From Yoonia sp. (GTDB lineage: Bacteria; Pseudomonadota; Alphaproteobacteria; Rhodobacterales; Rhodobacteraceae), in the NCBI GenBank assembly GCA_029250945.1, contig JAQXEG010000009.1:1-64000 (forward strand): DNA of 64,000 nucleotides. The letters run 5' to 3'. Below the pieces are notes generated by a model that made no database searches, had not been told where the DNA came from, and worked only from the letters and a program-made list of their open reading frames with translations. Position numbers and translations under genes: made by a program. Positions 9,807 through 28,545 of this stretch are shown in pieces (position 1 is the stretch's first letter; every line of letters starts with the position of its first letter).

Positions 9807-10964
9807 TTAGTATCCGCGCCAGATCCAGCCACCGCCCAACACGCGGCTGCTATCAGGGTCGTAGAACACACACGCCTGTCCAGGTGACACGCCTTCCTCG
9901 GCGACCAACAATTCAACCTCGGCCTCTGTGTCCGAAATCGGACGCAATACCGCCTCGATGGGTGGCTTGGTTGACCGGACCTTCACCGCGATCTGGCGCG
10001 GACCACCCGCCAAGAACCCACCGTCACCCAGCCAGTTAATCTCGCGCAGCGGCACCATGCGCGTGGCAAGCATCGCCTTGGTGCCAACAATCACATGGCG
10101 CTGGTCCACATCCAGCTTCACCACATAAAGCGGGTCAGCCAGGCCCCCGATGCCAAGCCCGCGTCGTTGGCCAATCGTGTAATGGATCACACCAGTGTGC
10201 TGCCCCAAAACGCGGCCCTCGGTGTCAACAATATCACCGGGCTCCGCCGCACCAGGGCGCAACTTTTCAATCACGGCGGCGTAGTTCCCATCCGGCACAA
10301 AACAAATATCCTGACTGTCCGGCTTATCCGCCACACCCAGCCCGTATTTCTGCGCAAGCGCGCGCGTTTCTTCCTTGGACTTCAAATGCCCCAAGGGAAA
10401 GCGTAGGTAATCCAACTGCTCGGCCGTGGTGGAAAACAGGAAATAGCTCTGGTCTTTGGTCGGATCGGCTGCGGAGTGCAGCTCGGCACATTGATCACCC
10501 ATCATTCGCTGGATATAATGACCCGTCGCCATACAATCAGCATCCAGATCCTTGGCCGTTTCCAACAGATCCTTGAACTTCACCCGTTCATTGCACCGAA
10601 TGCACGGCACAGGCGTCGCACCGGCCAGATAGCTGTCGGCGAACTCATCCATCACCGCATCCTTAAAGATGTTTTCGTAATCCAGCACATAATGCGGAAA
10701 ACCCATCTCCTCGGCGACGCGGCGGGCATCGTGGATATCGCGGCCCGCACAGCAGGCACCCTTTTTGGCCAGCGCCGCCCCGTGGTCATATAACTGCAAC
10801 GTTACACCAACCACGTCATAGCCTTCTTCAGCCAGTTGCGCCGCCACAACCGAGCTGTCAACACCGCCCGACATGGCGACCACAACACGGGTTTCCGACG
10901 GCGGTTTTGCAAATCCAAGTGAGTTCAGCGCAGGGTCCAGCGGCATACCATCAAGTCCGATCAT
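9807..10964 (-). CDS. mnmA: tRNA-specific 2-thiouridylase
   Basis: Cytoplasmic enzyme of about 385 residues that thiolates U34 of Glu/Gln/Lys tRNAs. It has the PP-loop AMSGGVDSS near residue 35, the catalytic Cys in the segment [12 protein letters not shown] region and the conserved tRNA-binding stretch ATGHYI, with GIGGL and QRRGLGIGG further on. I choose the ATG at 10964; a second ATG at 10946 is also plausible, and the longer reading frame from 11000 is not supported by resemblance to relatives. It is divergent from sciP, an arrangement conserved in Rhodobacteraceae. Confidence 0.95.
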
Positions 10965-11081
10965 GAAAGATTTGGTCAAAATATAGGAAAATAAGCACAA
11001 CGAAAAAGGGCCCGCCTATACCGGTCTTTAACCCCTTGTGAGCATAACGTCTTTGGGAAAACCTGAAAAGGGGTGAACAAG

Positions 11082-11351
11082 ATGTATTTAAAGAAAATAG
11101 ATAGGCCACGATCCGTGACACTGCCCGATGGTAAGGTGATGACACGTACGGACCTGCCGCCAGCCGACACACGACGCTCAGCCGCATCACGTAAGGCACT
11201 GGTAATCAAAGCCGTTTTATCGGGGCTGATCACAAAGGACACGGCAAAATCAACCTATGCGTTATCCGATGACGAATACGCCGAATGGGAAAATGCCGTC
11301 CAAAACAACGGTGAGGCGTCGCTGAAAGCCACGGCATTGAAACAATACTGA
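11082..11351 (+). CDS. sciP: SciP-like CtrA inhibitor (DUF1153)
   Basis: Small cytoplasmic protein of 89 residues. In Caulobacter SciP binds CtrA and blocks its recruitment of RNA polymerase. The family pattern is clear: MYLKKIDRPRSVTLPDG at the start, LPPADTRR, then a helical segment ending EASLKATALKQY. The start is the ATG at 11082, eight bases after GGGGTGA; a GTG three codons upstream is also open. One point is odd: relatives carry Trp after the Thr-(Arg/Lys)-Arg motif (RRWVASRK), but here it is RRSAASRK, so the Trp is lost. The gene lies 99 bases upstream of ctrA, itself broken, which may mean reduced constraint on both. Confidence 0.88.
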   Translation: MYLKKIDRPRSVTLPDGKVMTRTDLPPADTRRSAASRKALVIKAVLSGLITKDTAKSTYALSDDEYAEWENAVQNNGEASLKATALKQY

Positions 11352-11387: not shown

Positions 11388-11404
11388 TTAAACCCGAATT
11401 AACC
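11388..11404 (+). promoter_or_regulatory. CtrA-type binding site TTAA-N7-TTAACC upstream of ctrA
   Basis: TTAAACCCGAATTAACC matches the alphaproteobacterial CtrA box (TTAA, seven bases, TTAA). It lies about 47 bases upstream of the ctrA start, where autoregulatory sites sit in relatives. The site is intact although the gene carries a stop codon. Confidence 0.7.
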
Positions 11405-11450: not shown

Positions 11451-12164
11451 ATGCGTGTCCTACTCGTCGAAGACGACCCAACAACATCTAAAAGCATCGA
11501 ATTGATGCTGACCCACGCCAACCTGAACGTCTATGCGACGGATTTGGGGGAAGAGGGGATCGATCTTGCGAAGTTGTATGACTACGACCTGATCCTTCTG
11601 GACCTGAACTTGCCTGACATGAATGGGCATGAGGTGCTTCGCCAACTCCGGCTTAGCCGGATTGAGACGCCGATCCTGATCCTGTCAGGGGATGATGACA
11701 CGGAAAGCAAGCTTAAGGGTTTTGGCTTTGGTGCTGACGATTATCTCACTAAATCCTTCCACCGCGAAGAATTGGTTGCGCGTATCCACGCCATCATCCG
11801 CCGGTCCAAGGGGCATGCGTAATCCATCACCAAAACGGGCCGAATTTCCGTTAATCTTGATGCGAAAACCGTGGATGTGGGCGGCTCCACCGTGCGTCTA
11901 AGCGGTAAAGAATACCAAATGTTAGATCTTTTGTCGCTCCGCAAAGGCACGACATTGACCAAAGAAATGTTCCTCAACCATCTTTATGGCGGCATGGATG
12001 AACCTGAACTGAAGATCATTGATGTCTTTATCTGGAAGCTGCGCAAGAAATTGGGCGAGGCGACCGAGGGTGAAAATTACATCGAAAAGGTCTGGGGCCG
12101 TGGCTATGTCCTGCGCGATCCAGAGCCGAACATGAACGCAGAAAAGATTGCTGTCGGCGCATAA
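11451..12164 (+). pseudogene. ctrA: cell-cycle response regulator CtrA, interrupted by in-frame TAA at codon 124
   Basis: CtrA is the OmpR-family master regulator of cell cycle, motility and gene-transfer agents in Alphaproteobacteria. The receiver domain is complete (phosphoacceptor Asp51 in LLDLNLPDM, Thr/Lys partners), and after the stop the same frame continues with the whole winged-helix domain ([44 protein letters not shown]). The interruption at 11820-11822 is TAA between GHA and SITKTG; relatives read GHAQS, so a single CAA-to-TAA change explains it. There is no frameshift. Two other conserved sites differ: Lys101 is followed by Ser rather than the usual cis-Pro, and FIWKLRKK replaces FICKLRKK. 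A good ribosome-binding site (CGGAGA) and a CtrA box remain. The product would be a 123-residue receiver without DNA binding, unless the stop is read through. A sequencing error is possible but would have to be a substitution. Confidence 0.9.
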
Positions 12165-12245: not shown

Positions 12246-16477
<4,232 letters not shown>

Positions 16478-26248: not shown

Positions 26249-26360
26249 GATGACGTTTCCTTTGGATGCGCGCCTTAGGCCACGGGGGCGATGCGGCGTC
26301 AACCTTGTGATTGCGCAGTTTCTTATTAGGGTGAAATACAACATTCGAAGGGACAGACCA

Positions 26361-27211
26361 ATACAATGGCAAGGTCGACGCACTAGCGGCAATATCGAAG
26401 ACAGACGCCGCAGCGGCAGCACATCGCGCAGGAGCGGGGTGACAGGGATCGAGGCCGTGATTGCTTTGATCATCGGCTAGTATTTTGGCGTGGATGTCAG
26501 CGGGTTTGTCGATACCGGCAACACGGGCATTACCACAAGCCAATACGCTGAAATCACCTAACAAGATGAGGCAGCGGCTGAATTTGTCAGCGTGACCCTT
26601 GCCGATACAGAAGAGGTCTGGACCGACATTTTCCGCCAACGAGTTGGACATTCGTATGTCGCGTCCAAGCTAGTCTTGTTCAAAGGCAGCACACAATCGG
26701 CCTGTGGCGGCGCAAGTGCGGCGACAGGGCCATTCTATTGCCCTCCCGAGAAAAAGTCGTTCTGGACACGGCGTTTTTCACGCCCCTTGAACGGCAGATG
26801 GGGGCAGGTGGGGATTTCGCGGCGGCCTATGTTGTAGTCCATGAAATCGCGCATCACGTCCAAAACGAACTGGGCATTCTGGGGCAGGCCAACCTAATCC
26901 GGACAAAGGTGTCACAAGCGGAATCAAATGGAATTTCCGTTCGGATCGAGCTTCAGGCGGATTGCTATTTGGGGATCTGGGCGCGCGCTGTGCAGGCGAA
27001 ATTCGGCACGTTAGAACGCGGCGATATTGCAGAGGCCATGAATGCGGCAAAGCAGATTGGTGACGACACGCTGCAACGCAACGCAGGGCGCACAGTGCAA
27101 CCACACACGTTCACACACGGCACAAGTGCGCAGCGCCAACGCTGGTTTGCACGCGGTTTTGAAAGCGGTCAGCTGGAATCCTGTGACACGTTTTCGGCGC
27201 GCCAATTATAG
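26361..27211 (+). pseudogene. YpfJ-type neutral zinc metallopeptidase, decayed
   Basis: The remains can be followed through almost the whole protein: QWQGRRTSGNIEDRRR at the start, EFVSVTLADTEEVWTDIF, SACGGASAATGPFYCPP, the zinc motif HEIAHH, then LQADCYLGIWARAV and FTHGTSAQRQRWF. Damage: the start codon position is ATA (26361) instead of ATG; in-frame stops TAG at 26478-26480 and TAA at 26559-26561; and a one-base loss near 26750 shifts the frame just before the EKVVLDTAFF segment. It lies divergently next to the VTT-domain gene. With four lesions a functional product is very unlikely. Confidence 0.9.
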
Positions 27212-27780: not shown

Positions 27781-28545
27781 TTGGCTTTGGGTATCTCGGT
27801 CTTGCCCAACTTTGGGGGCACACCGGTCGATTGGGGCGACCAGATCGGCTATCAGCTGAATGGCCAGCACCTGTGCAACTTAACTGACTCAACTATGACG
27901 GCGAACGAGACATTGACCCTGTTCGACGGTTCGACCCAAGTTGTTAAAGTTATCATGTTCCAGCAGCACAACGGCGATTTGTTCATCTCTGAGCTGTCGA
28001 ACGGCGGCAAGTTTGATAACCTCGAGATTGCAAACATTGAAATTACCCAGATCACAGATATCCACTCGACGGGCTGGTATTCTAACCAATCCGTAAGCAA
28101 CACATCGTTTGCACCGGTTGTGGCAGCCAACCTCGACGGTATCGTTGACGGCACAAATGCCTCTGAGACGATTGATGCAAATTTTGCGGACGCTGATGGT
28201 GATTGCGTGGATGCAAACGACCAGCAGTTGCCGGGTGAAGCGACCAATTACGACATCATTCTTGCAGGTGGCGGTGACGATTTCGTGCTGGCCGGTGCAG
28301 GCGCTGATGAAGTCTTTGGCGGTACAGGCGATGATACACTTTGCGCCCAGCACGAGGTGGTCCTGTACAACGGCGCATGGACCGAGAGCTTCCAGCCAGG
28401 TGATTATTCCCTGCGTGGCATCGGCGACGCACAGAGCAAGGAATTGATCACCCTGTTCCCAGAACTGGCAACCTTTGAAGGCGTATCAAACTATGGGGCT
28501 GCACGCGCCACATTGCGCAGCCACGAGGCAAAGCTGATCAATTAA
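27781..28545 (+). pseudogene. RTX-type calcium-binding / Hint-domain protein with internal deletion
   Basis: The remnant joins two halves of a secreted Rhodobacteraceae protein type. The first part contains an N-terminal domain and a short RTX block of GG-x-G-x-D-type repeats (LAGGGDDFVLAGAGADEVFGG) near residues 170-190. Straight after it (CAQHEVVLYNGAWTESFQPGDYSL) the sequence becomes the tail of a Hint_2 domain, ending PELATFEGVSNYGAARATLRS. The N-terminal Hint half (the CFTPGT self-cleaving Cys) is missing, so roughly 130 residues appear to have been deleted in frame. No good ATG exists; the frame opens with TTG after an AT-rich stretch with a stop at 27709. A non-functional remnant is the simplest reading, though the remaining frame is open. 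Confidence 0.7.

Follow-up and report, generated by a model that had tools for sequence, protein, structure and literature searches.

The ctrA gene of a Yoonia/Loktanella-type small-genome lineage (G000) is, with a probability that we put at about 0.88, a recent pseudogene and part of a collapse of the CckA-ChpT-CtrA phosphorelay. CtrA is the textbook master regulator of the cell cycle in Alphaproteobacteria, and the decay of regulators whose targets have been lost is a familiar phenomenon. The genome is a 2.53-Mb draft in 48 contigs and 95.4% complete. Its best named matches include two uncultured Loktanella MAGs and one Yoonia sp. MAG, on which the genus assignment is based. The window, i.e. 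the whole stretch of DNA analysed here, comprises 64,000 nucleotides of one contig (G000:C29:1-64000); the features discussed below are collected in Table 1.

Table 1. Features of the ctrA locus (positions in the window)
Feature	Position	Strand	Remarks
ctrA remnant	11451..12164	+	full-length frame, one internal stop; relatives share neighbours mnmA, sciP, ligA
In-frame TAA, codon 124	11820..11822	+	next base T; Gln in 127/127 other distinct sequences
Receiver domain frame up to stop	11451..11822	+	123 aa; Asp51, Lys101 kept; P102S
Stranded DNA-binding half	11823..12164	+	I127T, H149R, T151S, E159D, C195W, T213K
TTAA-N7-TTAA site	11388..11402	+	63 bases upstream of ctrA start
sciP (DUF1153, CtrA inhibitor)	11073..11351	+	G11R, W36S at invariant columns
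mnmA	9807..11000	-	intact neighbour, control
ligA	12255..14390	+	intact neighbour, control

An initial annotation of this DNA had described a full-length ctrA frame with a single in-frame TAA that replaces a Gln codon, and named two more altered positions. The frame is indeed open apart from that stop, and the Gln-to-stop change is borne out by comparison with other CtrA sequences. A ctrA match was obtained at 136 loci, eight of which were left out before columns were counted. These were four duplicates (L050, L051, L052, L054), a second copy of the window (L006), the broken gene of genome G026 (L044), the interrupted gene of G066 (L141) and one sequence containing N (L137). The resulting set holds 128 distinct sequences, the G000 copy and 127 others, and was submitted to a leave-one-out count of changes at columns that are otherwise invariant. 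Both of the additional positions are real, P102S (Pro in 127/127) and C195W (Cys in 126/127), and five more were found beyond these (I127T, H149R, T151S, E159D, T213K), each at a residue identical in all 127. The G000 gene has six changes at invariant columns, namely P102S and these five, plus C195W. Among the other 127 sequences, 111 show no such change, 13 show one and 3 show two.

The Pfam domain Response_reg (PF00072) lies before the stop and Trans_reg_C (PF00486) after it; with the TAA between them they are not read as one chain. Asp51 and Lys101, to which we ascribe active-site roles, are both retained. The remnant is orthologous to ctrA of the relatives by best match (identity up to 93%) and by conserved neighbours, and the intact orthologue in G014 passes the NCBIfam family NF045991 (427 bits; cut-off 350). 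A second ctrA, which the initial annotation had considered, was sought, and the 95%-complete draft gave a single match at E ≤ 1e-60. Five further OmpR-type DNA-binding domains detected there belong to different genes, and a duplicate elsewhere in the draft was dismissed, none being found.

Pairwise dN/dS-like ratios for the whole gene were only slightly raised in G000 (0.084 vs 0.057–0.082 in six intact relatives). The rise is carried by codons 102–237 (0.111 vs 0.068–0.085); codons 1–101 are ordinary (0.045 vs 0.038–0.077). Two marks of a pseudogene are present, a disrupted frame and relaxed constraint beyond the stop, the latter in the invariant-column count as well as in codons 102–237. Since about seven unusual missense changes stand against ~109 synonymous differences between G000 and G014, the loss looks recent. 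Judged from the sequence comparisons, a genuine loss of CtrA in G000 appears well supported.

Erosion extends to sciP and spares the other neighbours. When all loci covering them were considered, no invariant column was changed in mnmA (0/160), ligA (0/138) or recG (0/20) of G000; within the genus recG showed 1/31, as it did in 5 of 16 other rows. For sciP the count was 2/15, the highest among 130 loci, and includes Trp36. The SciP protein reached 97.4 bits in NCBIfam, below the cut-off of 100, as compared to 107.7–122.3 in six relatives (G026 among them), and its dN/dS-like ratio was 0.302 vs 0.206–0.273.

To judge the quality of the assembly, the window was set against one contig of G014; frames were counted as shared if they had 120 codons or more and an identity of ≥60%. 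There are 40 such frames. Just two of them are interrupted, ctrA and a zinc-peptidase gene, and a third is just 9% covered. Five shared frames had first seemed interrupted, but in three of them the stops lay solely in upstream frame extensions. With just two interrupted genes among 40, false stops at base level are not rampant in this assembly. The zinc-peptidase gene (window 26274-27208), putatively that of a neutral zinc metallopeptidase (PF04228), is a second pseudogene; relative to G014 it contains one frameshift and two stops. The poorly covered frame (27829-28539) is a 9% remnant of a 2625-codon calcium-binding-repeat-like protein (repeat type assigned by eye), the frame of which is open in G014; most of this gene is without a match in the window.

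In the remainder of the relay, cckA was found on contig C38, where an in-frame stop interrupts it and the frame shifts as the receiver domain begins; it gives no match to the first 137 of 801 residues. The orthologue in G014 reads through 811 codons and comprises PAS, HisKA, HATPase and receiver domains, and its top NCBIfam families are CckA, at scores below their cut-offs. An intact CckA hybrid kinase was not found in G000. CckA is the usual phosphate donor of ChpT. The chpT gene (C44) retains an open frame and its histidine, with 2/50 invariant columns changed; the corresponding figure for G010, a genome with open ctrA, is 3/51. Invariant columns of chpT were defined on 21 sequences, which come from 20 genomes (L143 and L196 are one and the same gene). 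Among the best matches that are free of stops, in the 55 genomes that have a match, ChpT of G000 scores lowest (54 bits). This leaves chpT as the sole relay gene that looks nearly whole.

The clients of CtrA were probed by single markers, FlhA for the flagellum and GTA_TIM for the gene transfer agent (GTA), in a genus set of 56 genomes that includes G000. With the threshold of E ≤ 1e-60, ctrA was matched in 55/56; the exception, G065, is a draft in 440 contigs and its missing ctrA is probably a gap in the assembly. FlhA was present in 36/56 genomes and GTA_TIM in 51/56, any match being counted, fragments such as that of G021 included. Neither marker was matched in G000 (one marker per system, 95%-complete draft) nor in G026 (one marker per system, 84% complete), and both were likewise absent from G006 and G010. 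The latter two have an open ctrA despite lacking both, and hence the loss of clients does not force that of CtrA at once. G014 and G013 lack FlhA and have GTA_TIM and ctrA, and G073 has all three. Eroded ctrA was observed in 2/4 genomes without both markers vs 0/52 others (p=0.004); if G065 and G066 are counted as broken, the figures are 2/4 vs 2/52 (p=0.022).

According to the initial annotation, this lineage might have lost control of its motility and GTA genes. The loss of CtrA stood up; the remainder of that statement has to be revised, given that the markers FlhA and GTA_TIM are themselves absent and cckA is broken as well. With both markers missing, it appears that CtrA has lost its clients, and not the clients CtrA. 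As to the order of events, we infer that the clients disappeared before CtrA function did.

A second case occurs in the same genus. In G026 (84% complete) the frame of ctrA shifts after codon 52, and the gene also carries two stops and an insertion of 6 bases; cckA contains two frameshifts. Its chpT shows H15L, affecting what we take to be the phospho-acceptor, and W94stop, with 9/48 invariant columns changed in all and three TGA codons in the ChpT match. In a tree of mnmA+ligA (59 rows; L141 was dropped, having no ligA), G000 clusters with G014 (support 89) and G013 (91), and G026 is sister to G073 (100), followed by G035 (100). Because ctrA is open in G014, G013, G073 and G035, the neighbours of both in the tree, the losses in G000 and G026 are independent; a shared, inherited loss was ruled out by this tree together with the different lesions. 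A ChpT match was not found in G073 (380 contigs, 92% complete), which, given the number of contigs, is likely an assembly gap, and cckA of G073 is seen only from a contig edge.

Other readings of the interrupted gene have to be weighed. A receiver-only CtrA of 123 amino acids might still be made and be under selection, for instance by pairing in dimers or serving as a phosphate sink, with only the DNA-binding half decaying. We consider this improbable, and equally so its more specific version in which the peptide would act as a phosphate sink for, or a brake on, the near-intact ChpT; if true, CtrA would be on its way to becoming a signalling protein with a single domain. In favour of such a peptide, the linker is where the stop falls, neither Asp51 nor Lys101 has been lost, residues 1–101 show no change at any invariant column and have the ordinary ratio given above, and the histidine of ChpT is retained. 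P102S, however, removes the invariant Pro right after Lys101, and CckA is broken. Just one of the seven missense changes at near-invariant columns precedes the stop (80 columns before, 73 after; binomial p=0.049), but this p-value is weak and was looked at with the data already known, and the bin 1–101 was also chosen post hoc. Moreover, the first 52 residues of CtrA in G026 are unchanged with respect to G073 in a gene that is otherwise wrecked, so that mutation may just not have reached the early residues so far. The TTAA-N7-TTAA site, presumably a CtrA box, persists upstream of ctrA in G000 and is also present in G014; it was not found within 160 bases upstream of the gene in G026 or G073. 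As ctrA of G073 is open without such a site, its persistence says little. Among the findings that do count against a pseudogene are the nearly intact ChpT of G000, the only slightly raised ratio over the whole gene and the open ctrA of G006 and G010.

It is very unlikely that the TAA stems from an error of sequencing, assembly or strain mixing and that CtrA is intact in the living cell. The stop is known from the assembly alone, a draft in 48 contigs, and one C to T change suffices to create it; such an error would leave unexplained the seven missense changes at near-invariant sites, the cckA lesions on another contig and an eroded sciP alongside clean neighbours, and G026 provides an independent and more advanced parallel. 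An isolated sequencing error was accordingly ruled out by the lesion counts in ctrA, cckA and sciP vs the clean neighbours. Least probable is a split CtrA in which the receiver peptide and a separately started DNA-binding peptide jointly regulate. An internal GTG at 11871 does open a 97-aa frame over the DNA-binding domain, but no Shine-Dalgarno sequence was recognised upstream of it by eye, the DNA-binding half bears 6/7 of the unusual missense changes, C195W included, and cckA is broken. We retain the pseudogene as the preferred reading.

The distribution of CtrA was then considered across the family (394 genomes from 393 genera). A ctrA match was obtained in 365/394 genomes, and in 328/347 good genomes, with at most seven candidates scored per genome. 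Of the 19 good genomes lacking ctrA, 14 (2.1–5.6 Mb) were rechecked; 13 had only distant paralogues or nothing, and G085 had a ctrA fragment. ChpT, FlhA and GTA_TIM were each matched in 2 of these 14. The controls, 20 ctrA-bearing genomes of 2.4–2.9 Mb, were hand-picked, neither random nor size-matched, and had ChpT in 19, FlhA in 15 and GTA_TIM in 19. At least one client marker was present in 3/14 genomes without ctrA vs 20/20 controls (p=1.3e-6), a value that overstates the case since the genera lack phylogenetic independence and the choice of controls was made by hand. Exceptions among the genomes lacking ctrA are G169, which keeps FlhA, and G263, which keeps GTA_TIM and ChpT. The latter assembly (2 contigs, 99% complete, 4.0 Mb) has GTA_TIM in two pieces and no match for ctrA or FlhA. 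It breaks the pattern of co-loss, and its GTA may have a different regulator.

Several other genomes were seen to have a broken ctrA. Two prophages, one of ~41.6 kb and one of ~47.2 kb, found in different genera, occupy the same site in the DNA-binding half (around codon 180): the gene is split in G066 between L156:8314-8898 and L190:15458-15652, and in G167 between L225:13158-13694 and L223:5833-5991. Each prophage is bounded on either side by a near-repeat of the core that encodes FLNHLY. Their integrases, which adjoin ctrA, are 52% identical; the terminase and portal families differ and the head genes are unrelated. A phage attachment site inside ctrA might allow CtrA to be switched. No report of a prophage inside ctrA was found in the literature searched, and the available portions of PMC10589892, PMC8224337 and PMC9437464 describe no integration into this gene. 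A search of viral_contigs with the prophage integrase gave no match. The 18-base att core occurred there in five contigs, AT-rich and unrelated-looking by eye; the stretches examined matched neither ctrA nor integrase.

In G432 (end of L227, L228:1-327) and G085 (end of L226), ctrA breaks in or near the linker between receiver and DNA-binding domain, at codons ~118–125 and near the position of the stop in the window, and transposase genes (rve-type, DDE_Tnp_1) are located at the break. Only the 3' half of the gene was found in G085, at a contig end. In G296 (L229:2297-2301) and G101 (L230:2163-2166) ctrA is in two pieces in different frames that meet at about codon 165–169; these splits could be single small insertions or deletions, or sequencing errors.

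The passages of PMC12363192 that treat the relay in Rhodobacterales assign it a core role in flagellar gene control, with the GTA cluster as a conserved target; according to PMC4046655, ctrA has not proved essential in the Rhodobacterales studied to date. The survey of 65 genomes by Brilli et al. (2010; PMC2877005) reports CtrA in most, but not all, Alphaproteobacteria. A scenario may be put forward on this basis. CtrA, not known to be essential in Rhodobacterales, would mainly switch on flagellar and GTA genes, and the loss of flagellum and GTA would have ended selection on the CckA-ChpT-CtrA relay. A nonsense mutation in the linker of ctrA, and a stop and a frameshift in cckA, may have followed, with missense changes piling up in the DNA-binding half of CtrA and in SciP. 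We found no report of ctrA decay in Rhodobacteraceae in the literature searched. A relay caught in mid-decay twice independently in one genus, beside relatives with a whole ctrA, represents a clean natural experiment. It makes testable what keeps CtrA in Rhodobacteraceae, and the data point to flagellar and GTA clients rather than to the cell cycle. The next genomes to consider are clearly G006 and G010, in which ctrA is open although both client markers are absent.

Compared with known systems, the G000 gene is orthologous to CtrA of other Rhodobacterales by sequence and by its neighbours mnmA, sciP and ligA; it differs in the interruption between the receiver and DNA-binding domains, in its erosion and in the broken state of its kinase gene, cckA. 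G026 resembles it in the independent decay of ctrA and cckA without a match for FlhA or GTA_TIM, but is further advanced, with a frameshift, an insertion, two stops and a broken chpT, and its lesions are different ones. The Rhodobacteraceae genera without ctrA share the absence of CtrA and, in most of the 14 genomes, of matches for ChpT, FlhA and GTA_TIM. In contrast to G000 the gene is wholly gone there, so that the order and age of the loss can no longer be read. In G066 and G167 (prophages) and in G432 and G085 (transposase genes) ctrA is broken as in G000, but by insertion; unlike G000, G066 keeps GTA_TIM, and G085 keeps both FlhA and GTA_TIM.
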